A stretch of DNA of 64,000 bases from an uncultured Methylococcales bacterium. Its GTDB lineage: Bacteria > Pseudomonadota > Gammaproteobacteria > Methylococcales > Methylomonadaceae. The translations under genes and the position numbers were made by a program. The stretch is taken from positions 1 to 64,000 of the forward strand of contig CAIUVX010000139.1 of the NCBI GenBank assembly GCA_903902705.1. The letters are read 5' to 3'. Shown one piece after another: positions 8,944 to 41,925 of this stretch. The stretch's first letter is position 1; each line of letters begins with the position of its first letter. The notes beneath the pieces were generated by a model. That model was not told the DNA's origin and ran no database searches. It saw only the letters and a program-made list of their open reading frames with translations.

Positions 8944-10334
8944 TATTTTACTCCCTTGGCGTTGGTGGTTGATTGTTGAGTCGCTTGCGGTTCAAGGTTA
9001 GTGGTTGATTGTTGAATCGCTTGTGGTTCAAGATAGCCAACGGTTAAATGGTCTTCGAGCAAATATTTTTTTGCCACATTCTGCACTTGTTCGGCAGTGA
9101 CTTGATTGATTTTATCGACATATTCATCGGCTTTTTGCCACGGTAAGCCTACGGATTCTAATGCACCTAACTGCATGGCTTGATAAAAATTGGAGTCTTT
9201 TTCATACACTGCACTGGCTAATACTTGCGCCTTAATACGCTGTAGCTCTTCTGTACTGATTAAGGTTTGCTGTAACACGTTCACTTCCGCTTTTAAGGCT
9301 TTTTCTAAATCGGGTAGCGTTTTACCTTCGACAGGTGTCGCTTCTAATTCAAATAAACTGTCCAATCTGGATGTTAAGCTATAACTGGCACTGGCGGAGA
9401 CTGCTAGTTGCTTGCCGCGTACTAAATTAGCCGATAATCGCGCACTATTACCCCCATCTAACACACCCGCTAATACTTCCAGCGCGTAAGCTTCACTTTC
9501 ATCAGTGGTCGTTTTTAAACTGGGTACTTTATAGCCTAGCACTAGCACAGGCAATTTAGCAGGTGCTTTTACAGTCAGTCTCCGTGCGCCTAATTGTTCA
9601 ATTTCAGATAGCGGTTTTAAGGGTTTAATCTCGCTAGTTTTTAGCTCAGCAAACTGTTTTTCCGCTAAATCAAATACTGCTTGAGTTTGCACATCACCCA
9701 CCACCACCAAGATGGCATTATTTGGCGCGTACCAACGTGAATACCACGCTTGCAAATCCTCTACTTGATAATTGGCAATATCCGATGGCCAACCAATAAT
9801 AGGATTTTTATAAGGGCTATTGGTATAAGCAACTGCTGAAAAATATTCGCCTAGTTTGGCTTGTGGATTATCATCAGTACGCATACGACGTTCTTCCGTC
9901 ACCACTTCCAGTTCTTTTTTTAATTCTTCGGGCAGAAGATGCAAATATCGCATTCTATCAGCCTCCAATTCAAAACTAACTTCTAACTTGGATGCTGCCA
10001 TAGTTTGAAAATAAGCAGTATAGTCCTGTGCGGTAAAAGCATTTTCATCGCCACCATTTTCAGCAATAATTTTAGAAAATTCCCCCGCTGGATATTTGTC
10101 CGTACCTTTGAACATCATGTGTTCCAGCATGTGGGAAATCCCTGTGATACCGTTAGGCTCATAACTAGAACCCACTTTGTACCAGACTTGAGACACTACC
10201 ACAGGTGAGCGATGATCTTCTTTAACCAACACTTTTAAGCCATTTTTTAAAATGTGTTCAGAAACTTTGCTTGCTGTGGCGTGTGCTACCACAGGCAGAC
10301 ACAGCAACACAGTACATAATAATCGTTTGTTCAT
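8943..10334 (-). CDS. M16 family zinc peptidase, active subunit
   Basis: 463 residues with a signal peptide ending near VVAHA. The inverted zinc motif HMLEH is at residues 68-72, and the distal acidic ligand lies in EVVTEERRMR near residue 148. The mid-region has the usual WYSRWYAPNNAILVVVGDV. It degrades short peptides in the periplasm, probably with the inactive homologue that starts at its stop codon (TAATG overlap). An odd point: the C-terminal tail carries a 12-residue in-frame tandem duplication, LEPQAIQQSTTN then LEPQATQQSTTN (DNA about 8962-9033), likely recent. First gene of an M16-M16-rsmD operon. Confidence 0.93.
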   Translation of the reverse strand: MNKRLLCTVLLCLPVVAHATASKVSEHILKNGLKVLVKEDHRSPVVVSQVWYKVGSSYEPNGITGISHMLEHMMFKGTDKYPAGEFSKIIAENGGDENAFTAQDYTAYFQTMAASKLEVSFELEADRMRYLHLLPEELKKELEVVTEERRMRTDDNPQAKLGEYFSAVAYTNSPYKNPIIGWPSDIANYQVEDLQAWYSRWYAPNNAILVVVGDVQTQAVFDLAEKQFAELKTSEIKPLKPLSEIEQLGARRLTVKAPAKLPVLVLGYKVPSLKTTTDESEAYALEVLAGVLDGGNSARLSANLVRGKQLAVSASASYSLTSRLDSLFELEATPVEGKTLPDLEKALKAEVNVLQQTLISTEELQRIKAQVLASAVYEKDSNFYQAMQLGALESVGLPWQKADEYVDKINQVTAEQVQNVAKKYLLEDHLTVGYLEPQAIQQSTTNLEPQATQQSTTNAKGVK

Positions 10335-10450: not shown

Positions 10451-11995
10451 TTAGTTTGACTGTAGTGCTGGAACAATAGAAACATCAACTGACCCGATAT
10501 GTCGATTTGCACCATAAGATAATGCTGGCAATAATCCAGTATCGAATTGATAAATATGCTCTATGCTCTGAACAAGTTTCTTTCTGCTTAATTCTCGTCC
10601 CGTCTTTTGTAATCCTTCCACTAATAATTTAGCCGCGCTATAAGTAACTGCTTGTGCTGTTAAATGGTGTGTGCTGAGATTATTTTGTTTTATTAGCCGA
10701 AAAAAATCTTCTGCGTTGCTTTGATTCTGAGATGCTGCTGGGGAAGACAGAAAAATTTTATCGTGAAATTGTTCATTAACACCCTTGGCATTAGTCAAAG
10801 AACTGGAGATAAACACATAAGGTTTTGTCTTCAATGTTTCGATGCTTTTCAATAAAACACTCAATTCATCACTCGTGCCAAAAAAATAAATAACATCGGG
10901 CATTTGCTTAATTAATTTGGCAGTCAGTGCTTGAGGCTGAAATGTGCTAGGTGAATAAACGAAATGAGTAACCGCGCCTGAGCCACGCATTTGACTTTGT
11001 TTTTTGATGGCTTTAGCTACCTTGCGAATATAACTGTTTTCAGGACTAATGACCAGAGACTGACTGTTTTTCAAGTGCAATTCATTCGCTGCATAATCAA
11101 CCATAGCGCGGGATTCATTGTTAAGCCCTGGCAACAGATAAAAAGTGAATTGGCTACGACTTGATTTATCTTCAGGAAACAGCGTATAAGGAGCAATCTG
11201 AGGAACGCCTAATCGTTCAGCCAGTAACAAAATGTCTTGCTCTATGTTACTAGAGAACGGGGCTATCATGGCAAAAACGGATTCTGTTTCCAGCAAACGG
11301 CGAACATTTTTTAGCGTTGACTCGCTATCGCTTGTGTATTCGGTAACGTCTAATTGTATTTTACGATTATAAATACCGCCCTGTGCGTTAATTTCATTAA
11401 AATAAGCTAATAATATGTTTTTCATAGCCAATCCCATATCGGCTAATGAACCTTGCATTGGTAGTAATGTAGCAAGACGAATCGTGGTGTCAGTCAAGCC
11501 CGCATCCGCATCACTGGATAAACGTTTTAAGTAGGCGATTAGATCGGCACTGTCACTATCAGGCAGTGTATATCGGGGCATGGCAACATCTAATCGATTA
11601 CTCGCTGAATCAATGCCGCTGCTGATTGCTCTAACAAATGTATCGGGCGTAAACGCGGGATGTTTTCTGCCATTGTCGTGCTGATGACCATAAGACAGCG
11701 CAAGATATTCAAAGGTAATGTTGGTTGGTACGATATTGCCTTCGGGTCGCCCTCGTCCATCTTCACCATGACAGGAAACACAAGGAACTTGAGTGCTAGG
11801 TAGTTCGGTCGATTCCAAGCCTATATGGGCGGTAATAACGTTGCCAGAAGGACTTGCGCCCGTCATATAAAGTTGCTTGCCGCGTGTTTCCGACTCAGTT
11901 AATGGCGCGGCTGATAGACTGTTTGCTATCAGGATCAAGCCGATCAGCAGCATCTTACCGTTAGGATTTTTCACGGCGGGCAAGTAATAATTCAT
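10451..11995 (-). CDS. Cytochrome c domain fused to periplasmic substrate-binding protein (Peripla_BP_6 type)
   Basis: 514 residues. A signal segment (LLIGLILIANSLSAA) leads into a cytochrome c domain with haem motif CVSCH near residue 75 and a candidate Met ligand in AMPRYTLPDSDSADLIAYL. From about residue 170 a branched-chain amino-acid-type binding protein follows: IRLATLLPMQGSLADMGLAM, FNEINAQGGIYNRKI, then a C-terminal lobe. No permease or ATPase gene is near, so import is unlikely; electron transfer or sensing tied to ligand binding is possible. The ATG at 11995 overlaps the SCO gene by 35 bases; an ATG at 11953 is the alternative but gives an n-region without positive charge. Last gene of the copper-redox cluster. 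Confidence 0.8.
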   Translation of the reverse strand: MNYYLPAVKNPNGKMLLIGLILIANSLSAAPLTESETRGKQLYMTGASPSGNVITAHIGLESTELPSTQVPCVSCHGEDGRGRPEGNIVPTNITFEYLALSYGHQHDNGRKHPAFTPDTFVRAISSGIDSASNRLDVAMPRYTLPDSDSADLIAYLKRLSSDADAGLTDTTIRLATLLPMQGSLADMGLAMKNILLAYFNEINAQGGIYNRKIQLDVTEYTSDSESTLKNVRRLLETESVFAMIAPFSSNIEQDILLLAERLGVPQIAPYTLFPEDKSSRSQFTFYLLPGLNNESRAMVDYAANELHLKNSQSLVISPENSYIRKVAKAIKKQSQMRGSGAVTHFVYSPSTFQPQALTAKLIKQMPDVIYFFGTSDELSVLLKSIETLKTKPYVFISSSLTNAKGVNEQFHDKIFLSSPAASQNQSNAEDFFRLIKQNNLSTHHLTAQAVTYSAAKLLVEGLQKTGRELSRKKLVQSIEHIYQFDTGLLPALSYGANRHIGSVDVSIVPALQSN

Positions 11996-12584
11996 CGATT
12001 TTTGCAGCTAGGGTTTCTGGACGAGTGAAACCGTCAAAGCGCGTCCATACGCCACTGATTGAATCGCCAACCAAAATGACGGGCGTATGGTTGCTGTAAT
12101 CCGCACTATAAACACCTAGCCCCTTTAATAAATCATCAACTGGCTTTTTTTCACCCGTCAACCAGACCCATTCAGGCTTAGCATTAAAATGTGTTGAGTA
12201 TGTTTTTAAGCTTTCAGGTGTATCTGTTATCGGATTGATACTTAACGACACCATGCGCACGTCTTTTTGCAGTTTTTCACCCAGTTGATTTTGTAGTTTT
12301 GCAAAAATCGCTGAAACCACGGGGCAAGCTGTATGGCAGTCGGTATAAATAAAGTTAATGGCGATAATTCTGTCACCCACTATATCGCTGATAAATTTGA
12401 CCTGTGTGCCGTTTTGATCCAATAGCTCAGTATTCAACAGTTTGACAGTAGTCGATGATACGGGACGCGCCATCTGTGGCGATTCAAGCTCAGATGAAGT
12501 TTGCGGAAAATCTGACAACACAGCAATCACGACTCCAGCCACCGCTAACAAGGCGATCATTATTTTTAATTTGATCCCGTTCAT
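11961..12584 (-). CDS. SCO1/SenC family copper chaperone
   Basis: 207 residues. An N-terminal membrane anchor (IMIALLAVAGVVIAVLSDF) precedes a thioredoxin-like SCO domain. The copper-binding CxxxC is in YTDCHTACPVV near residue 90, and the distal His is in SNHTPVIL near residue 165. SCO proteins deliver copper to, or reduce thiols of, copper enzymes at the outer face of the inner membrane. Its start overlaps the stop of the propeller gene (ATGA type), so it belongs to the same operon. Likely client: the multicopper oxidase of this cluster (inference). Confidence 0.9.
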   Translation of the reverse strand: MNGIKLKIMIALLAVAGVVIAVLSDFPQTSSELESPQMARPVSSTTVKLLNTELLDQNGTQVKFISDIVGDRIIAINFIYTDCHTACPVVSAIFAKLQNQLGEKLQKDVRMVSLSINPITDTPESLKTYSTHFNAKPEWVWLTGEKKPVDDLLKGLGVYSADYSNHTPVILVGDSISGVWTRFDGFTRPETLAAKIDELLLARREKS

Positions 12585-14509
12585 TGCCCTGCACCCTTAA
12601 CAGCACGAAAAGTCAGGATAGGTTGATCATGAAAAGTAAAGTTTAGCGTGGGCGATTGAACGAAAACTTGATAAACGCCTGTTTCTTCTGGCGTAATCTC
12701 CACTTGATAAATGCTATTGCCCTGTGCTTTGGCAATCATGCGTCGTTGCCCTTGTCCAGGAATACGAAAAATCAGCACTTGCAGGTCTTTAACGCTGTCT
12801 TTAATGCGTTCTTGGTCGGGATGATTCAATTTTATTTGAATCGGCACTGATATTCCAACGGGTACTTCTTTGTTAGTCAACAAGTAGTCAACAGTGACAG
12901 CTTGCCCACTTTGTTTCACTAGCTCTGGATTAGGCGCGATTTGAGTGTTAAAGCAATGATAAACTGATGGATTGTCCAGTAGTATCGATACATTGTAATT
13001 GCCAGCAGGGGGTAGTTGCGTTGAACTTGTATAAATTCCAGCGGCGGTTTCCTGTACACTTCGATTGACTATCATGACGGCCATTGGTTTTAAACCTTGG
13101 TTTTCAAAATTGCCCATCGGTGCCGCCATACCTTCCATGTAGTAATAAACAGTTTTATCAGCTGGATTAGCCACCACTACCGCATTGCGTTCGGGGGTCG
13201 GCACAATAGCATCGGTCAGTAGTGCGTTGTCTTGATCGGGGGCGGCTTGTCCCGCTGGAAAAGTAGTAACGGGTACAGTTCCCTCTTTATCCAATGAATC
13301 GAGTTGAATCATGTGGACTATTTCACTGCCAGTTGAACGAATGTAGGCAAAATGATCGGTAAATGCAATTTGATCGGGTGCATTACCTACATCAACAGTG
13401 TGAGCTAAGCGATTCAGTGATGAATCGATAATAAATACTTTGTTGGCAGTTTGACTGAGTGCAAAACCCCAGCGACCGTCGGCAGTAAAACGTAACGTTT
13501 TTAGTGGCGACCCCGTGTCAAGCGTTGTATTTACCGTGCTGTTGATAACCAGCAGATTGCCGTTTTCAGCCGCCACATACACGGATTTACTTAATGTTGA
13601 AAAAGCCAGCGCGATGGGCGGTGCAGGACTTTTAAGCGTTTGCTTAATGGACAATTGCTCAATGTCGATAATGGCAATTGATTGATCGTTTTTATTGCTG
13701 ACATAGGCGGTGCGGCTATCATCGCTAAAAGCAAACTCATGATGACCTGCGCCCGTTACCAACAATTGAGTTACTGCCATTTTTTCGGTATCGATGACAC
13801 TGACACCCATCGGTGATTTTTCATCAAGCGTTTCTAGTCCGACCCATAGATATTTACCGTCTGGCTGTAGTGCCAATCGTGTAGGCGTGGCATCAAAGGG
13901 AAGGACATTAATGACTGTCCACGTTTGTGTGTCAACCACCGCAACTTGATGGGTGAGTGGTGTGGAGACATAGAGTTTTTTGTGATCTTTGCTTAATGCC
14001 CAATCTTCGCCTGCACTGTTTAGCTTAATACGCGCCATTAATTTACTACCGCCAAAGCCGTTAATCGGATCGATGACTGAAATACTGGCATTATTATTCA
14101 TTGCCAGTACAAAATAAGAATTCAAGCTAATCTCTGGTTTAAAAGTCATTTGAGTTTGTAGATAGGAGCTGATTCTATCTTTGCAAGAAACAGCTTTTTC
14201 TTCTGGGTTTTCTCGTTCTAACCAAACAGAGGGATGCAAACCTTTAATAGGCTGCTTGTTAGCTGCTTGTTGTATGGTAAATTGTAAGTGAGCGGGCTGC
14301 CCTTCGAGCAGATTTTGCGCTGGGTTTTTATCGGTGGAAATCGAGTCGATAGCCATGGCAATACTGAGACCTTCCTTGATAATCAAGTTGCTTGCTTGAT
14401 TTTCTGTTGGTTTGTCAATCAGTACCAGCTCTTTAGCCTTGAACACCCAGAAAATGCTTGCGACAACTATCAGCAATAACGCTAAGCTCCAATAAATTTT
14501 TTTTTTCAT
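12581..14509 (-). CDS. Membrane-anchored beta-propeller (YncE-like) protein
   Basis: 642 residues. One N-terminal transmembrane segment (WSLALLLIVVASIFWVF) precedes a short extracytoplasmic lead. At about residues 130-440 a YncE-type propeller has repeated blades of the form K.LYVSTP...VAVVDTQTW, YLWVGLE..., TAYVSNKNDQSIAIIDIEQL and KVFIIDSSLNRL. The remaining third is beta-rich (NYNVSILLDNPSVYHCF, TGVYQVFVQSP) and may be Ig-like. Propellers of this kind often attend periplasmic redox enzymes; the role here is unknown. It lies 91 bases downstream of the multicopper oxidase, after a strong hairpin, and overlaps the SCO gene by 4 bases. Confidence 0.8.
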   Translation of the reverse strand: MKKKIYWSLALLLIVVASIFWVFKAKELVLIDKPTENQASNLIIKEGLSIAMAIDSISTDKNPAQNLLEGQPAHLQFTIQQAANKQPIKGLHPSVWLERENPEEKAVSCKDRISSYLQTQMTFKPEISLNSYFVLAMNNNASISVIDPINGFGGSKLMARIKLNSAGEDWALSKDHKKLYVSTPLTHQVAVVDTQTWTVINVLPFDATPTRLALQPDGKYLWVGLETLDEKSPMGVSVIDTEKMAVTQLLVTGAGHHEFAFSDDSRTAYVSNKNDQSIAIIDIEQLSIKQTLKSPAPPIALAFSTLSKSVYVAAENGNLLVINSTVNTTLDTGSPLKTLRFTADGRWGFALSQTANKVFIIDSSLNRLAHTVDVGNAPDQIAFTDHFAYIRSTGSEIVHMIQLDSLDKEGTVPVTTFPAGQAAPDQDNALLTDAIVPTPERNAVVVANPADKTVYYYMEGMAAPMGNFENQGLKPMAVMIVNRSVQETAAGIYTSSTQLPPAGNYNVSILLDNPSVYHCFNTQIAPNPELVKQSGQAVTVDYLLTNKEVPVGISVPIQIKLNHPDQERIKDSVKDLQVLIFRIPGQGQRRMIAKAQGNSIYQVEITPEETGVYQVFVQSPTLNFTFHDQPILTFRAVKGAGQ

Positions 14510-14544: not shown

Positions 14545-14577
14545 ATAAAAAAGAGTGCAGCCTAAAGGCTGCACTCT
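14545..14577 (-). terminator. Rho-independent terminator after the multicopper oxidase gene
   Basis: AGAGTGCAGCC (14552-14562) and GGCTGCACTCT (14567-14577) form a perfect 11-bp stem with a 4-base loop. Read on the minus strand it is followed directly by TTTTTTAT. It lies between the oxidase gene and the propeller gene, so downstream genes either depend on read-through or have their own promoter. Confidence 0.9.
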
Positions 14578-14600
14578 CATACTACGGCTTACGGTGCGTT

Positions 14601-17600
14601 TTATTCGACTCGGAAAATTCCCCATAAACCATTATCAAATTGGAACGATGCTTGATCTCGATACAGGTAATCACCTTTAGTACCATAATAGCCGCCCGCA
14701 CCATTAGTCAACATCAGATTAAGATGGCTACCCGCGCCTATGCCAGCCTCAGAACCCATCCACTCAGACCAGTTATTTTTACCCATGACGGTTGAGCCAT
14801 TGGTAAACGATGCTTCTTGCCAACCATGTCCATGTACCTGAAACACATGGTTGCGTGCATGACCACCTGGATGTAGCACACGCAATCTCACAGGATCGCC
14901 CGCTTTAGATTTGAAAATGGGTGTTTCTGGATCGCCTTTCAACACGGCACTGAAGTCTTTATTATGTGTTAAGGATAGCGGGGTATTAGCTGCGTATCCC
15001 ATTCTTGCCCACAAAGGTTCGGTTCGGTAGTTAAAGCCTTTTTGTCCAGAATCTTCGGGGTCTTCTGACTCGGCGGTGTTGGGTACTGCCACGCCATTTT
15101 GCTGTAAATTTAAATCATCTTGGAAAATCAACACATGCTCTCTGAAATAACCCGCGCCGTTAGCCTGTGTCACCGTTGCCGAAGCGCGTGAATTCATATC
15201 TTCGACCCACGTTGAACCCAAAGGCTCAATAACCAGCGCGGCGATAGCTCCTTTGCTGGTTTGTTTGATACGATCCGATGGCATCAAATTGACAGCACCG
15301 TATTCCACTGGCTCAGCAAAGCGGTTACCGTTTTTGACTATTTCTCTACCCGCATACCATTTATAGTTAACGGTTTGACCTGGTGCTGCGGTAGCAGGCT
15401 TTCCAGCCGTCCACAATTTGGGATTATGTCCGATATTCAAACCGCTACCAGTCAAAGAATCAAACTCCAGCAACTGTGGTGTTAGCCCTACATAACTGGA
15501 AGGTAATATGTCGTTATTGTTAAAGCCTTCGACTATCATCGGTAGCGTACTATAACCATCGGCTTGAGTGCTGCTTAGGTCTGCTGGAAGATGATTGACC
15601 AACACCATTGTAATACAGTCGCCTGCTCTAGCGCGAAGCATTAGCGGCTCAATAGGCACCCCCGTTTTTAAGCGAGTGACAGTGGTTTTAGTCGTAGTCT
15701 TAACACCATTAACTTTAGCCGTCGTTGTCGTTGTGGTGGTAGCGAAGTCTCCATCACGAACATACATAATAGCTCCTGAGTCTGACAGCCCCGCCATTTT
15801 ATTATAAACCAGAGGCCCGCCGAGCAGATCTTTTGCCAAGAACGCATGAACCTTAAAGTTGATGGCAGGTGCATTACTTGGACAAATACCATCATAAGTT
15901 ACACACGTTGGATCAACTAGTGTTCCATCCGCTTTTTTGGCGCAGGTCATAACAGGCAATACGCCCCCCTTTGGATTGCTCGACAATTTAGCCAACGTCG
16001 GCGCGGGATATTGAGCATCAAAAGCCCCTTTACCATTATAGGTTCTCATAATGCCCCACAGACCATTCCAAATATCGTCTGTTGCCGAACCTGGAAAGTA
16101 GGCGGTATCCGACCATGGGACATTGGCTTTAACTTTATCTACCGCTTCAACTTCAAACTCGAAATGTTCAGAAATACCGACCATTTGAGAGCCTTTATAG
16201 CCTGAATCTTTCAGTGAAGGTTCAAACAGCCATTTCATATTATGCGCACTAAAGTTATGACCTTCTTCATGCGCACCTTGTAAAATTCTGATTTGAACTT
16301 TATCACCTGCGTAGGTTTTCAATAATGGGGTGAACGGGTCGCCGCCCATGACATTGTTAGTCAATGGTGGCGGGGTTTTAGTCGTCGCGTCAAATTTAGG
16401 CTGACTATTCAGCTCTGGAATAGCACGATCGGTGCGTGATTCAAAAGCGAAAGAAAGATCACCCGCTAGACCAGCCGTTTGCTTATTTGCACCATTGTTG
16501 ATACGCGTTGCAATCGGTTCATTTCTATAGTTAACGGTCATTGTACCTGGATCATCCGCAGAAATCGCTTCTGGGCAAGGTCTGGGCGCACCTCCAGGAC
16601 AAGTTGCAGCTAAAGAGACCAAATTATGTAAACCATCTTCTTCTCTTCCAGGCGGATTAACAGGTGTCTTATCTGCTCGGTAAGCAAGTGAGAAATCCCC
16701 CATTTCCAGTAAAAATTCACGATAGGGTTTTTGACCGCTGGGTGGTTCAATAATCGCTTGCCACGTTGTTGGACCGCCGTCGTTTCTAGCACCTAGAGCG
16801 ACACCTGATTCATTATGCTTCCATTTTGAACCTGCGGGTTCAATCACCAGCCCCGCATAGAGTCCAGGATGTTGATGTGTCGAAGGGCCAAAATGATCAT
16901 GAGAGAAAACTGTGCGTAGTGTTCTATCTTCGCCTATGTTATTGGTAACATCATCAGCATACCAACGTTGCACGGTGGTTTGAATACAATCGCCGCCACC
17001 TTCTTTAAAATTAGCTAGCGTGCAAACTTTCGGTTTTTGAACTTGACTTTGGTTAACTGCGTATGGCTCTTGCCATGCACCTTCGGGTGTATTGATCGCT
17101 TCAAGACGTTCATGCACTTCTTGAGGGCTAAACGTACCGTCTTCATAATTCCAACCGTTGCCAGAACCGTCAGAAGACATCACATCGAATTTAACCAAGT
17201 GAATATGCTGACCAATAATATCAGTCGGAGTGGTGACTTGGAAATCATCCTTTTCGTAGGTATTAGGCAGTAAATTAGTGTGTTCAAAGGTAATACAATC
17301 ACCACTGTTGGCTCTAAAGAACATCGGTTCTGGGGGTTTTATACCTGCCAGCGTATCAGAGACATCATTGAATAACGTCAGAATACGTTGTTGTGGAAAG
17401 TGCCAGCCTAACTTGTTCATTTTGACATCTAACTGAATAGCCGCTGCGTGGTAAAAACGATCTTTACCAGTCACAGCTTGTTGAGCATCATCAATACAGG
17501 GATCGGCGAAAGGTGCGCCTGGTTTTGCTGGCAAACCATTAACCTTGAATGTACCTCCACTGCCATCTGGTTTGGGTGTGGCGTATTGTTTCGGTCCTAC

Positions 17601-19913
17601 TGTCGTACCGTCGCCACCATGAAATATCATGGCTTGTCTTTCCCAAGGTGTACCGTTTTCGGGCAGTTTTTTTGCTGCCATTGTATCGATGATTTTATTA
17701 AAGTTTTCACGGTCTTGACGGCTGGTTGCAGTACCGCCAGTGACAACATGGCGAGGTAAACCACCATCTTTAACAGTGTCCATTGGTGGATGTGGTGGAC
17801 GATGTCCTGTTACACCTGCCACAAAAAATGGATAACCTGGATTACCTAACGCAGGTTTGTCTAGCGAAACGTCAGGAAGTTTAACTTCACCTGTAGGTGT
17901 TAGTTTGCCGTCTGCGCCTGCAACATATTCAATTTCTGCTTTCGCACTAGGTTGTGGTGCCATTGCCATTGTAGGCATAGGGACTACCGCAGGTATCGGT
18001 GTTCCCGCTTTGATTTCATGATCGGGCAATGCTCTCGCACCTTGTGCAGGTCTACCGTCTGCATCCAGTACAGTACCCGTTTCTAGTACATCATGTACCC
18101 GCCACAATTCCCACATACCTTGGGCAAAATGGGTGTAAAAATGGCAGTGAAATATCGAGTCGCCTATAGTATGGTTACGATTGCCGCTACCATGATGGGC
18201 AATTTCATAAGTATAACCACTACCTGCTCCTAGACTTTGACTATCTAAATAGGCAGAGTTATCACTATCGGGGCTGTGTAACCATTGGTGTGCGTGCAGG
18301 TGGAAAATATGATGTTCTTTAGGTCCAGCGTGTAAATTTCTGAATTTTACGCGGTCATTAAGATAGCTATGATGTACATTGGACGGATCGTCTGGAAAGT
18401 AAACTTTGGTTGCAAACTGGGGATTATCAACAACGCCCTTGCCATTCGCGTTAACGCTGGCAGGCATATCAACGATCATTGCGGGATCACCCATCACCCA
18501 TGAAGTTAAAAAGAATTCTTCACCTTTACACTCGACACAATCTTTCATAGGACCAAGTCCTAAGCGGTTGGCTATAATTTCTGAACCGATACCACCTGTT
18601 CCATAATTGATGCCAAAACCATCTCTAACTGCGTGCAAGGTATGGATAAGAACGGGGTCGTTATACCAAGCAGGGAACGCCTGTACTGCTTTGATTTCAT
18701 CGTGAAAGATAACGGTAAACTCACGGAATGGATCGGTGCGATCAGGATAAATCGCGTTTTTAGGTTCTTCCGTCGCGTCAAATGCTCCTCCAGTGCTTCC
18801 AGTGATGATGGCATTAAGGTCGGAATGAACAATACTGCCACTGCTATCACGCATATTCAAAATAGGTATGCCTGCTAAAGGATGCGAAACACTCCCCTCA
18901 ATTTTCCAACTATAAGGTGGTATTTCACTAGCAAAAGCATCTATAACCGTCACTTTAGCTGAACCATCGGCGAAAACTTCATCAATCCGCGCTTTGCCTA
19001 TTGTTCCAACCAGCGTTTTACCTATATCGGCAGCAATAAAACCAATATGACTACTTAGGCTACTCATGGTCGCCTTAGTCGAGCCATCTGGATTACTGGT
19101 TAAAATAAGCTGTTCGGGCAGTTTGCGGGTTTCAACAGCAGGATAAACCGCATTGTAATCAATAACGGGGTAATATTTTCCGTTTGACAGGGTAGAACTG
19201 GTTGTCGCTAAGGTCATATCCTGCTCAGTCACTTGACTGCGATACCATTCAGAACCTTTGTTTTCTACGTTGACTGCACCAAACAAACCATGTGCCAGAG
19301 AACCGCCATTGCCTTCACCACCTGTGGTTGCTGCGGTACTGTAGGCAAAATAAGTGCCTTCTTTTTGTGCGTAAAACGTATAAGTTTTGCTTTCGCCTGG
19401 CGCGGCTAGACCGCTTGTGTTGTTGCCAACATTAGACGCATCGGAAATAATGTCACTCGCCTGCATACCCATCACATGGAATGATGCGCTGCGCGTAGCA
19501 GGACCACTATTTTCAGCACCCGCAGGGTCAGCTACAACTGGTTCTACCGCGCCAGCTACATGAGGAGCAGCGGGATGTGGGACAATTGGATTTAATAAGT
19601 TGGTGAAATTAACGGTTAAACAATCGCCTTCGTTGACGCGCAGCACTAAAGGACGTGGTCTTTTATCAGAACGCAACCTAACATTGCCAGCAGTTAGCCC
19701 TGAACCACTTGTAGAAGAAACAACATCACGCTTCAAAGCAAAAATCATTCCCGAAGGATTCATTGCGCCGAGACGGTTGTAATAAAAAACTTGATCCAGC
19801 GCAACCACGTCGGCAGTGACGCAAGCTTGAGCCAAATTGGCTAGCCCAAATGTCAGTATTAACAAACACGACTTGGCGAGGGTACACACGGATATGTGAT
19901 TAGATACTGACAT
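14601..19913 (-). CDS. Giant secreted multicopper oxidase (MofA/MnxG-like, possible Mn(II) oxidase)
   Basis: 1770 residues with a signal peptide ending near LAQA. Cupredoxin starts recur (EGDCLTVNFTN, SGDCITFEHTN, AGDKVQIRIL, AGDCITMVLVN, AGDPVRLRVL), suggesting about six domains. Copper ligands: HLHAHQW near 540 and HCHFYTHFAQGMW near 589, the latter the only Cys-type T1 site; GQHIHLVKFD near 903; HDHFGPSTHQH near 1009; GAHEEGHNFSAH near 1218; HARNHVFQVHGHGW near 1690. Length and layout recall the long bacterial manganese oxidases (MofA about 1660, MnxG about 1220 residues). That link is from memory, and other metal or organic substrates are possible. Start: ATG 19913 with AGGAG upstream. 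A perfect hairpin plus U-run ends the transcript. Confidence 0.85.
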   Translation of the reverse strand: MSVSNHISVCTLAKSCLLILTFGLANLAQACVTADVVALDQVFYYNRLGAMNPSGMIFALKRDVVSSTSGSGLTAGNVRLRSDKRPRPLVLRVNEGDCLTVNFTNLLNPIVPHPAAPHVAGAVEPVVADPAGAENSGPATRSASFHVMGMQASDIISDASNVGNNTSGLAAPGESKTYTFYAQKEGTYFAYSTAATTGGEGNGGSLAHGLFGAVNVENKGSEWYRSQVTEQDMTLATTSSTLSNGKYYPVIDYNAVYPAVETRKLPEQLILTSNPDGSTKATMSSLSSHIGFIAADIGKTLVGTIGKARIDEVFADGSAKVTVIDAFASEIPPYSWKIEGSVSHPLAGIPILNMRDSSGSIVHSDLNAIITGSTGGAFDATEEPKNAIYPDRTDPFREFTVIFHDEIKAVQAFPAWYNDPVLIHTLHAVRDGFGINYGTGGIGSEIIANRLGLGPMKDCVECKGEEFFLTSWVMGDPAMIVDMPASVNANGKGVVDNPQFATKVYFPDDPSNVHHSYLNDRVKFRNLHAGPKEHHIFHLHAHQWLHSPDSDNSAYLDSQSLGAGSGYTYEIAHHGSGNRNHTIGDSIFHCHFYTHFAQGMWELWRVHDVLETGTVLDADGRPAQGARALPDHEIKAGTPIPAVVPMPTMAMAPQPSAKAEIEYVAGADGKLTPTGEVKLPDVSLDKPALGNPGYPFFVAGVTGHRPPHPPMDTVKDGGLPRHVVTGGTATSRQDRENFNKIIDTMAAKKLPENGTPWERQAMIFHGGDGTTVGPKQYATPKPDGSGGTFKVNGLPAKPGAPFADPCIDDAQQAVTGKDRFYHAAAIQLDVKMNKLGWHFPQQRILTLFNDVSDTLAGIKPPEPMFFRANSGDCITFEHTNLLPNTYEKDDFQVTTPTDIIGQHIHLVKFDVMSSDGSGNGWNYEDGTFSPQEVHERLEAINTPEGAWQEPYAVNQSQVQKPKVCTLANFKEGGGDCIQTTVQRWYADDVTNNIGEDRTLRTVFSHDHFGPSTHQHPGLYAGLVIEPAGSKWKHNESGVALGARNDGGPTTWQAIIEPPSGQKPYREFLLEMGDFSLAYRADKTPVNPPGREEDGLHNLVSLAATCPGGAPRPCPEAISADDPGTMTVNYRNEPIATRINNGANKQTAGLAGDLSFAFESRTDRAIPELNSQPKFDATTKTPPPLTNNVMGGDPFTPLLKTYAGDKVQIRILQGAHEEGHNFSAHNMKWLFEPSLKDSGYKGSQMVGISEHFEFEVEAVDKVKANVPWSDTAYFPGSATDDIWNGLWGIMRTYNGKGAFDAQYPAPTLAKLSSNPKGGVLPVMTCAKKADGTLVDPTCVTYDGICPSNAPAINFKVHAFLAKDLLGGPLVYNKMAGLSDSGAIMYVRDGDFATTTTTTTAKVNGVKTTTKTTVTRLKTGVPIEPLMLRARAGDCITMVLVNHLPADLSSTQADGYSTLPMIVEGFNNNDILPSSYVGLTPQLLEFDSLTGSGLNIGHNPKLWTAGKPATAAPGQTVNYKWYAGREIVKNGNRFAEPVEYGAVNLMPSDRIKQTSKGAIAALVIEPLGSTWVEDMNSRASATVTQANGAGYFREHVLIFQDDLNLQQNGVAVPNTAESEDPEDSGQKGFNYRTEPLWARMGYAANTPLSLTHNKDFSAVLKGDPETPIFKSKAGDPVRLRVLHPGGHARNHVFQVHGHGWQEASFTNGSTVMGKNNWSEWMGSEAGIGAGSHLNLMLTNGAGGYYGTKGDYLYRDQASFQFDNGLWGIFRVE

Positions 19914-38112: not shown

Positions 38113-41100
38113 TTATACCGTAGCCTTATGCAATAACTCAACAAAGGCTTCTGCTGTAATTGCTGGACTATAGAGAAAACCTTGGTAACTATCACAACCG
38201 CGTCTTTGTAAAAATACCAGTTGTTCAGCTGTTTCCACGCCTTTTGCTAATACTTTAAACCCTAAATTATGCGCCATATTAATCATGGTGCTGGTAATAA
38301 TCATATCATTGGCTAACAAGGGAATATCTTTGATAAAGCTTTTATCAATTTTTATAATGCTCAGTGGAAAGTGTTTAAGAGCTGAGAATGATGAATAGCC
38401 TGTACCAAAATCATCAATTGCCAACTGAATACCTTGATTGTTTAGATCAGTGAGAATAGCCAGTGCTTGATCTTGATTTGCCATTAAACCCGCTTCGCTT
38501 ATTTCCAATTCTAGTTGGGTAGCAGGAAAATTCGTTTCTGCCAATACCCTAGCGATTTCGCTGCTAATATCACGATGACGAAATTGTTGCGGCGACAAAT
38601 TAACCGTTAAAGTCAGCGGTGGCAAACCTGCATTCAGCCATTGCCGCCCTTGCTTGCAGGTTTCTGTTAATATCCACGCATCAATAATGGAAAATAAATC
38701 GGTGGTTTCGGCAATTGGCATAAAGTCATCGGGGAAAATCAGCCCTATCTTGGGGTCTTGCCAACGAACTAAAGCTTCCGCGCCGATGATGCTGTTGCTG
38801 GTAATATCGATTTGTGGCTGATAATACACACGCAATTCCTGATGTTTGATTGCCAGCCGTAACCGTGCTTCCAGAACAATACGTTGTTGTGCAATCAGGG
38901 TTAATTGTTCAGAAAAATAGGCAAAACAACCGCGTCCTTGTTTTTTAGCCAGATACAGCGCGGCATCGGCGTTATCGATGAGTGTTTCAGGATTATCGCC
39001 ATGCTGCGGATATAAGCTAATACCAATACTCGCACCAATTTGCACCGTGTCATTCTGACTCAGTAAAAACGGCTGAGCTAAGGTTTTAATAATGTCTTTA
39101 GCGACGCGCTCAATATTCACGGGGTGGCTAACATCATCCAGCAATATCACAAATTCATCACCCCCTAAACGCGCCACCATATCAATATCCCGCAAACGGG
39201 CTTTAATACGCTGCGCCACTTGTTTCAATAACTGATCCCCCGCTGCGTGTCCGAAATTATCGTTGACGGGTTTAAATTTATCCAAATCCAGCATTAACAC
39301 CGCCATCAGCTTATTTTCTCGCCGCGCTAAACTGATGCTATATTTCATACGCTCGGACAAGGCGCGACGATTGGGCAGATTAGTTAATACATCGTAGAAA
39401 GCGAGCTGTTTTATGTTTTCCTCGGCAGTTTTACGCTCAGTAATATCAGTCAGTGTTGCTACATAATGAGTCACTATTCCTTTATGGCTGGATTTTATTG
39501 CGGTGATAGTCAGCCATTGCGGATAGATTTCACCGTTTTTACGCTTATTCCAAATTTCACCCTGCCACATATTGGTACTCTCAATGCTTTGCCATAACAC
39601 CGTGTAAAACGCATCATCGTGTCGTCCCGAACGTAACAAACGGGGGGTGTGTCCGATTGCTTCATCAGGCGAGTAACCAGTAATTTTAGTAAACGCGTGA
39701 TTAACTTTGACAATAATTCGCTCGGCATCGGTAATAAACATCCCCTCTTGGGATTCAAAAATGGTTGCTGCAATGCGTAATTCGGTGTCTGCCTGTTGGC
39801 GTTCTAATTCACCTGCGGCGCGTACCGCTACCAATTTAAGCAACATTTCCGCTAACAATCTATTCTTCAAGGGTTTGCGACTAATGAGCGCGATTAATCC
39901 ATTGGGTTGACCATTAAAATCCAATAATGTCGTGCCAATATAACTTTCTGCTCTCATTTCTTGCAGCACACTATCATTTGGAAATAAATGGCACACATTG
40001 TCAGCAAAGCAACAAATCATATTACCGACCACGTTAGCGCAAGGCGTGTCATACAGGCTATAAGAGACATTATCTTCAAAATGACCATCACTATAAATCG
40101 CCACAGTTTCTGCGACTAAACCATCTGGTTTCAATCTATCAATACAGACATAATCCATCTCCAATGTTTCGGCAAGATAACGCGCCAGCGAGGCAAAAAA
40201 ATCTTCACCCGATTGCTGATAGCCGCATTCAAACAGAAACAATTGCGTAGCGTCCAGTTGTTTGCGTTCGGTAATATCTTCGATAATACAGTGATGATGC
40301 GGGTAGTTTTGATTTTCAACCTGCATCGGTGCGACCGTTAAATTAACCCAGACTATACTGCCATCAGGACGAATCAAACGTTTTTCCATAGTAAAACCGT
40401 TGATTTTTCCTGCAAGCATTAATGCCATATTCGCCAAATCTTTCTGCTCATCCTCAGGATGGGTAAAACTAAGCCGACCGATACAGGTGACCTCTTCCAC
40501 CGTTCTGCCTACAATTTTTGCAAACATCGCATTGGCTTCAAGAATTCGCCCTGTTAGTGAATCAACCACTGCGATACCCAATGGGGCTTGATTAAAAATA
40601 CTTTTAAAGCGTTCTTCACTGTCGCGTATTACCGACTCCATGCGTTTACGTTCGCTAATATCACGCCAAGCTACATGAATAATCATATCACCCTGTAGTT
40701 TGATTTTACTGAGCGTGACTTCAACAAAAAGAGGAGAACCATCGGCGCGTAGATGACACCAATCAAAACGATAATGCCCCTTCTCTAGTACGATGGCGAT
40801 TATTTCAGCGGATTTTTGTTCAGAATCACGCCCGTCTTCTTGATAAGGCGGCGATAGCTTACTAGGGCTATGATTAATTAATTGCGCTTTGTCAGCATAG
40901 CCCAGTAATTTTAAAGTAGCCGCATTGCAATCAATAAACAGCGCATTTTTAATCAATAGTACTGCATCATTGGAGTCTTCAAACAGGTGGAAAAAAGTTT
41001 CTTTACTTTCGCGTAATTCCCGCTCTATTGAATCGCGCTTATCAATATGAATCGCTAACGCGACACCGACTAACGATAAACTAATGCTGTAAAAATAAAA

Positions 41101-41925
41101 ATTAATCAGCTGTGCTTTTTCCAAATCATCGGCGAAAAAGCCAACACCGTGGGTCGCCCCCAGCATGGCTTGCACGACTACCATCAATAAAACAACCAAC
41201 GTACCGTGTCTGCCTAATTGAGTTGCTACTAAGGTGATAATGGCAAATAACCAATAACCTTTAGCAGTCATACCTAAAATTTCAAGAAACCAACCGAGGA
41301 AAATAATTTGTCCGACTAGCCACGTTCCCGCTACGATAAGAGCTATTTTTAGTCTATTTTTTGCGATTAGTAAGGGAGCTGGCATTTTTTGCCATACTAA
41401 AATTAACGGCGTAATTAAAACAACGCCCAAGACATCGTCAATTAGCCAGCGGAGCAGTTCCATAAAATAATGATCTGGCTTAATTATATTCGCCAGTTGC
41501 AAGGTGGTTGTTCCTATCAACGCACCGATACTGCACCCCAAAAAACCGCCAAAAACAATCAGGCGCAGATAGTCAGGCAAAGAACGGAGTGATAAATCAA
41601 TGTTGTTTTTGTAAGTGACGAAAGTTGCGCCTAAAACCGCACTCAGCGTACAGCCCGTGGCAATGTTAAGGGCTATCCAAAGGTCAATTCCACTCAACAG
41701 ATTGGCAATCATACTGCCGAAAAAAATACTTAGTGCGTAAACTCTACCGCCTAAAAGCAGTGCGGCTAAAGCGATACCTGTGGCGATAAAAAATAGATTC
41801 GTGCTTCCTTGAGGGGCTAAATAATCACCAACAAAGCGATACGCAAACACATAAAGTGCCGACACACTCAGTAATTTTAAAAATTTCAATCGCTGTGATT
41901 GGATTTCAAACGTTAATAGCGACAT
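38113..41925 (-). CDS. MASE1-PAS-PAS-GAF-PAS-GGDEF-EAL c-di-GMP signalling protein
   Basis: 1270 residues. Residues 1-300 hold about eight membrane helices of MASE1 type (FRFVGDYLAPQG-like start, AYRFVGDYLAPQGSTN). Next come PAS domains at about 310-430 and 435-560, a GAF domain at about 575-720 (QQSGEDFFASLARYLAETL) and a third PAS at about 730-850. The GGDEF domain (RLGGDEFVILLDD near 945) and EAL domain (GAEALVRWQDP near 1070, DDFGTGYSSFSALK near 1180) both have intact catalytic motifs, so it can potentially make and break c-di-GMP. The signal is unknown. No partner gene is adjacent. It ends at a palindromic repeat. Confidence 0.93.
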   Translation of the reverse strand: MSLLTFEIQSQRLKFLKLLSVSALYVFAYRFVGDYLAPQGSTNLFFIATGIALAALLLGGRVYALSIFFGSMIANLLSGIDLWIALNIATGCTLSAVLGATFVTYKNNIDLSLRSLPDYLRLIVFGGFLGCSIGALIGTTTLQLANIIKPDHYFMELLRWLIDDVLGVVLITPLILVWQKMPAPLLIAKNRLKIALIVAGTWLVGQIIFLGWFLEILGMTAKGYWLFAIITLVATQLGRHGTLVVLLMVVVQAMLGATHGVGFFADDLEKAQLINFYFYSISLSLVGVALAIHIDKRDSIERELRESKETFFHLFEDSNDAVLLIKNALFIDCNAATLKLLGYADKAQLINHSPSKLSPPYQEDGRDSEQKSAEIIAIVLEKGHYRFDWCHLRADGSPLFVEVTLSKIKLQGDMIIHVAWRDISERKRMESVIRDSEERFKSIFNQAPLGIAVVDSLTGRILEANAMFAKIVGRTVEEVTCIGRLSFTHPEDEQKDLANMALMLAGKINGFTMEKRLIRPDGSIVWVNLTVAPMQVENQNYPHHHCIIEDITERKQLDATQLFLFECGYQQSGEDFFASLARYLAETLEMDYVCIDRLKPDGLVAETVAIYSDGHFEDNVSYSLYDTPCANVVGNMICCFADNVCHLFPNDSVLQEMRAESYIGTTLLDFNGQPNGLIALISRKPLKNRLLAEMLLKLVAVRAAGELERQQADTELRIAATIFESQEGMFITDAERIIVKVNHAFTKITGYSPDEAIGHTPRLLRSGRHDDAFYTVLWQSIESTNMWQGEIWNKRKNGEIYPQWLTITAIKSSHKGIVTHYVATLTDITERKTAEENIKQLAFYDVLTNLPNRRALSERMKYSISLARRENKLMAVLMLDLDKFKPVNDNFGHAAGDQLLKQVAQRIKARLRDIDMVARLGGDEFVILLDDVSHPVNIERVAKDIIKTLAQPFLLSQNDTVQIGASIGISLYPQHGDNPETLIDNADAALYLAKKQGRGCFAYFSEQLTLIAQQRIVLEARLRLAIKHQELRVYYQPQIDITSNSIIGAEALVRWQDPKIGLIFPDDFMPIAETTDLFSIIDAWILTETCKQGRQWLNAGLPPLTLTVNLSPQQFRHRDISSEIARVLAETNFPATQLELEISEAGLMANQDQALAILTDLNNQGIQLAIDDFGTGYSSFSALKHFPLSIIKIDKSFIKDIPLLANDMIITSTMINMAHNLGFKVLAKGVETAEQLVFLQRRGCDSYQGFLYSPAITAEAFVELLHKATV

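Follow-up and report, generated by a model that had tools for sequence, protein, structure and literature searches.

The purpose of bacterial Mn(II) oxidation is an open question, and the locus described here raises it for a methane-oxidising bacterium. A 64,000-nucleotide stretch of DNA from an uncultured Methylococcales bacterium (contig CAIUVX010000139.1 of assembly GCA_903902705.1, positions 1 to 64,000, hereafter the window) encodes a very large multicopper oxidase, for which the first-pass annotation had suggested a role as a possible Mn(II) oxidase. Which metal would such an enzyme oxidise, and with which partners? McoA of Pseudomonas putida GB-1 and MofA of Leptothrix discophora are large Mn-linked multicopper oxidases, and ceruloplasmin-like multicopper metallo-oxidases act on Fe(II). 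Published hints of Mn oxidases in methanotrophs are thin: our search of the open-access literature found no description of an mnxG operon in a methanotroph, and a 2025 Methylobacter survey annotated a 'moxA manganese oxidase' (PMC12810054). The enzyme type itself is well known; it is the methane-oxidising host that would link two element cycles. We consider it likely that the window locus is an mnxG operon whose oxidase is secreted and oxidises Mn(II), with the electrons passing to O2.

The host

The host genome (3.97 Mb in 210 contigs, 99.8% complete) carries a PQQ methanol dehydrogenase and a pmoC that stops 180 bases short of a contig end. A search of the assembly for pmoA (PF02461) did not find it. 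This gene was present in 31 of 41 sampled genomes of Methylococcales; several close relatives also lacked it, and in one the gene was limited to a fragment at the edge of a contig. Because there are relatives without pmoA and pmoC lies near a contig end, we do not read the missing pmoA as a true absence. With pmoC at a contig end, the methanol dehydrogenase in place and pmoA in most of the Methylococcales genomes sampled, the earlier description of the organism as a probable methanotroph holds, and its identity as a Methylococcales methanotroph is supported.

The window also encodes a 1270-residue MASE1-PAS-GGDEF-EAL protein (38113-41925, minus strand), which has a 63% relative in the Methylobacter-type locus L024, where it lies upstream of the oxidase at a distance of a few kb. 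Cyclic-di-GMP is reportedly linked to Mn oxidation in Pseudomonas, and by analogy a link between this protein and Mn oxidation is possible.

A multicopper oxidase of the MnxG family

14601..19913, minus strand: MnxG-family multicopper oxidase of 1770 residues, with a signal peptide and six cupredoxin-type domains (ORF list, profile, structure search)

The 1770-residue reading frame on the minus strand is real. It starts with ATG, with the ribosome-binding-like sequence TTAGGAGACGTATCATG 5' of the start, and 559 bases, holding no listed ORF of at least 80 residues, separate this start from mutS. The N-terminus, MSVSNHISVCTLAKSCLLILTFGLANLAQA followed by C, reads on inspection as a Sec signal peptide, in agreement with the secreted protein that had been proposed. 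The conserved Cys31 was also considered as a lipoprotein site, and was rejected because a lipobox-like sequence occurred in just 5 of 75 cases.

No placement in a clade of characterised non-manganese oxidases, the outcome named beforehand as speaking against the annotation, was seen in the comparison with solved structures. The sole strong relative there was a Mn oxidase, Bacillus MnxG (9bxa; E=1.4e-105), and the aligned segments are spread over the full length of the protein. The NCBIfam MnxG model NF041487 gave the oxidase 1323 bits, below its equivalog cut-off of 3100. None of the homologues tested, those with the full operon included, reached this cut-off (best 2515), and a search with the same model found nothing above 3100 in 369 sampled genomes of the class. 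Since 1323 bits falls short of 3100, the membership that we claim is of the wider MnxG family and not of the NF041487 equivalog; we conclude that the oxidase belongs to the MnxG family as one of its distant members. That it is instead an ordinary laccase-like or CopA/CumA-type copper oxidase, acting on phenols or in copper tolerance and merely large, is extremely improbable. A small laccase was indeed the second sequence match among solved structures (E=0.023), and the fold of two domains is shared by small laccases; yet the Pfam copper-oxidase models stayed under threshold (best Cu-oxidase_3, E=0.09, 13.3 bits where 21 are required), the protein agrees with MnxG in six-domain layout, length and operon, and the genome has separate ordinary copper oxidases at other loci.

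The fold agrees with the placement in the MnxG family. The oxidase was modelled as two halves, residues 28-1100 (mean pLDDT 75) and residues 1060-1770 (mean pLDDT 85), and 9bxa was the top structural match of both, at Z 21.5 over 636 residues for the N-terminal half and Z 25.1 over 533 residues for the C-terminal half. The halves align with MnxG residues 1-776 and 622-1204, respectively, and combined they give nearly complete coverage of the MnxG chain; the C-terminal half can further be aligned with ceruloplasmin, a protein of six domains, and these alignments fit the six cupredoxin-like segments first noticed in the sequence. Ceruloplasmin, coagulation factors and two-domain laccases were the next matches after 9bxa, as expected for the fold.

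The likeness to ceruloplasmin bears on the substrate. An MnxG-fold oxidase whose natural substrate is Fe(II), Cu(I) or a mixture would serve detoxification or iron oxidation rather than form Mn oxide. Such an enzyme would fit a large family with hosts of diverse lifestyle, and ceruloplasmin, an Fe(II) oxidase, shares the six-cupredoxin architecture and aligns with the C-terminal half at Z about 22. We nevertheless judge it unlikely, as MnxG ranks first both by sequence and by fold, and the gene order follows the P. putida mnxG operon. Compared with ceruloplasmin, the window oxidase has one T1 copper only, in domain 2, and a trinuclear site between domains 2 and 3, and there is no sequence match.

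With MnxG of Bacillus sp. PL-12, solved in the MnxE3F3G complex (9bxa), the window oxidase shares full-length homology, copper ligands and the whole-chain fold. It is about 540 residues longer, and whereas the Bacillus protein is spore-borne, the window oxidase is exported by a Gram-negative cell. The Bacillus enzyme requires MnxE/F; no MnxE/MnxF-like small genes were found among the neighbours of the window oxidase, where the 559 bases upstream are followed by mutS.

Copper sites

18294..18311, minus strand: HxxHxH, residues 535-540 (H535 T1, H538 T2, H540 T3), invariant in 85 homologues
18114..18149, minus strand: HCHxxxHxxxxM, here HCHFYTHFAQGM, residues 589-600, invariant in 85 homologues
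17199..17207, minus strand: HIH, residues 903-905 (H903 T2, H905 T3), invariant and aligned with HIH of 9bxa
16893..16901, minus strand: HDH (H1005 and H1007, both T3), invariant and aligned with HDH of 9bxa

The single T1 site and the HxH sites of the first-pass annotation were recovered as one complete T1 motif together with HxxHxH, HIH and HDH. Within HCHFYTHFAQGM, H589 and H591 are T3 ligands, C590 and H595 are T1 ligands and M600 is the axial T1 ligand, the T1, T2 and T3 roles being assigned by the canonical multicopper oxidase motif. All 12 ligands, making up one T1 copper and one trinuclear centre, occupy MnxG positions and are invariant in the alignment of 85 homologues, which includes MnxG of Priestia megaterium (1705 bits to 9bxa; its gene follows two small ones in the order mnxEFG). 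H595 corresponds to residue 340 of 9bxa, which reads Ala there, the title of the entry being 'Mnx H340A'. Against a Mn-specific reading, copper ligands and SCO partners are common to many copper enzymes.

A conserved operon

12581..14509, minus strand: beta-propeller of YncE / cytochrome d1 type with an N-terminal membrane anchor (Pfam, homologous loci)
11961..12584, minus strand: SCO1/SenC copper chaperone with a CxxxC motif, CHTAC (Pfam, sequence)
10451..11995, minus strand: exported fusion protein joining a mono-haem cytochrome c (CVSCH; one CxxCH) to Peripla_BP_6 (Pfam)
14551..14578, minus strand: terminator-like hairpin with a perfect 12-bp stem and a T tail, between the oxidase and propeller genes

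The SCO chaperone, the propeller protein and the cytochrome c fusion that had been reported beside the oxidase are all three downstream of it and on the same strand; two genes that read by inspection as M16 peptidases follow the fusion gene. P. putida mnxG is sigma-54 dependent. A search for a sigma-54 promoter upstream of the window oxidase gave weak signals and no clear site. In P. putida GB-1 the operon consists of mnxG, a 40-residue YVTN propeller, SCO1, a second SCO1, a substrate-binding protein with a cytochrome c domain, and SurA (PMC11409713 Table 4). The series oxidase-propeller-SCO-fusion is found here in identical order and strand, and the NCBIfam MnxG model (1323 bits) puts the two oxidases in the same family. 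The window locus differs in having one SCO gene instead of two, in the absence of SurA, in an oxidase score under the narrow equivalog cut-off and in the lack of a clear sigma-54 site. The window propeller is the counterpart of the YVTN propeller, and the window fusion that of the 'substrate-binding protein, cytochrome c domain'.

Two other large Mn-linked oxidases are set apart by their neighbours. The mof cluster has the order mofA-mofB(mip)-mofC(cytochrome c), whereas the window cluster has no mip/FKBP-type gene and carries its cytochrome c as part of a binding-protein fusion. The mcoA operon runs mcoA-SCO-diguanylate cyclase-phosphonate binding protein-integrase (PMC11409713), so that McoA of P. 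putida GB-1 is distinguished by gene order, its downstream genes differing from those of the window. Because, apart from the missing second SCO and SurA, the downstream genes match those of P. putida GB-1 mnxG, we read the locus as being of the MnxG-operon type rather than of the McoA or MofA type; the original comparison with MofA/MnxG was right and is sharpened in this way. In P. putida itself, deletion of mnxG slowed Mn removal about tenfold, and an mnxG mcoA double mutant lost it altogether (PMC11930936).

The same neighbours recur well outside the host's order. For the count we used named homologous loci in which the oxidase is followed by 7 kb or more of sequence (n=50), drawn from Methylococcales, Acidobacteriota, Nitrospirota, deltaproteobacterial, beta- and alphaproteobacterial, myxobacterial and other records, and compared them with the upstream side (n=49). 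The propeller lay downstream in 41/50, SCO in 32/50, the fusion in 28/50 and all three in 27/50; upstream, the corresponding counts were 3/49 for the propeller, 4/49 for SCO and 2/49 for the fusion. In homologous loci CxxxCP was kept in 62 of 68 SCO genes and CxxCH in all 35 of 35 fusions.

The constancy of the cytochrome c suggests a further route, an energy-conserving Mn(II) pathway in which electrons would pass through the propeller and fusion to the respiratory chain and not only to O2. The fusion is conserved alongside the oxidase in different phyla, its haem motif always kept, and cytochrome c maturation genes influence Mn oxidation in Pseudomonas (PMC11409713). We regard such a pathway as very improbable, given that several Methylobacter-type relatives have neither the propeller nor the fusion beside the gene; and because the trinuclear, O2-reducing site is fully conserved, an outside electron acceptor is not required.

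Several loci of the family show other arrangements. In the Methylobacter-type relatives (L165 11174-13360, L024 15407-17593, L010 6455-8962 and L009 9773-11701) the large oxidase without propeller and fusion has smaller Cu-oxidase_2 proteins and SCO proteins nearby, one SCO being fused to a cytochrome c. Two near-complete methanotroph genomes have two large-oxidase copies close together on the same strand (L155 4997-18821 and L164 6140-17152), and in L155 the propeller and SCO genes sit between the two copies.

The hairpin behind the window oxidase is kept in the closest named record (L008) and occurs in changed form in L027. As the terminator scan overall gave a count no higher than in shuffles, the case for this hairpin lies in its stem and its conservation. 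With such a structure in place, the oxidase may be produced in excess over its partners.

Phylogeny and distribution

In our tree, which was built without the named Pseudomonas MnxG, McoA, MofA and CumA sequences, the Methylomonadaceae oxidases formed one clade (support 1.0) that grouped with sequences from Acidobacteriota and with a single additional record (0.95). The best scorers with the MnxG model (2180-2515 bits) formed a separate clade (0.999), and the deeper order was weakly supported (0.28). No sequence that could be named as MofA was found in 399 genomes of the order of L036.

The oxidase is patchily distributed: of 301 Methylococcales genomes sampled, 28 carried it, with just two carriers among the eight genomes of the host's own genus. 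A search of seven genus mates recovered mutS in every one. Two mutS neighbourhoods lacking the oxidase were read, and there the gene order past mutS differs, so that no clean insertion site could be made out. GC content is even across the window and hence gives no compositional sign of recent transfer.

The closest named record is a Methylococcales MAG from Lac Pavin (L008), with 96% identity over about 20 kb around the operon, which lies in the same place. Two genes of this record are interrupted, the propeller gene by an in-frame stop (15393-17321) and mutS by a frameshift (9146-9439); either may reflect decay or an assembly error. Another homologue (L031) belongs to a MAG that its depositors named Mn-Methylococcaceae-1. 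This MAG (L031, L076) has two different large oxidases of the MnxG family.

Proposed mechanism and significance

From homology and synteny we infer that Mn(II) is the natural substrate, and the mechanism that we propose is modelled on the canonical multicopper oxidase sites. The oxidase would catalyse the conversion of Mn(II) to Mn(III) and on to Mn oxide, and we infer that the mineral would form outside the cytoplasm. Electrons from Mn(II) would enter at the single T1 copper of domain 2 (H535, C590, H595, M600) and cross the His-Cys-His bridge to the trinuclear cluster between domains 2 and 3 (H538, H540, H589, H591, H903, H905, H1005, H1007), where O2 would be reduced to water. Mnx proceeds by one-electron steps via Mn(III) (PMC5622069). 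The SCO protein probably loads or reduces the oxidase's copper sites; the remaining conserved partners are the propeller and the fusion of cytochrome c with a binding protein.

A broader reading would make the oxidase-propeller-SCO-fusion module a multi-protein Mn(II) oxidation system of many phyla, in which the fusion returns electrons to the respiratory chain. We hold this to be decidedly unlikely; were it true, a methanotroph could gain extra energy or protection from Mn(II) at an oxic-anoxic boundary, and methane and manganese cycling would be directly coupled.

To conclude, the likely function of the locus, that of an mnxG operon passing electrons from Mn(II) to O2, draws attention to two conserved yet unstudied parts of the Mn oxidation machinery, the propeller and the cytochrome c/binding-protein fusion. 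An mnxG operon in aerobic methanotrophs offers a testable route to Mn oxides at oxic-anoxic interfaces, and Mn oxides made by methane oxidisers would act on carbon and metals and possibly on the anoxic oxidation of methane.
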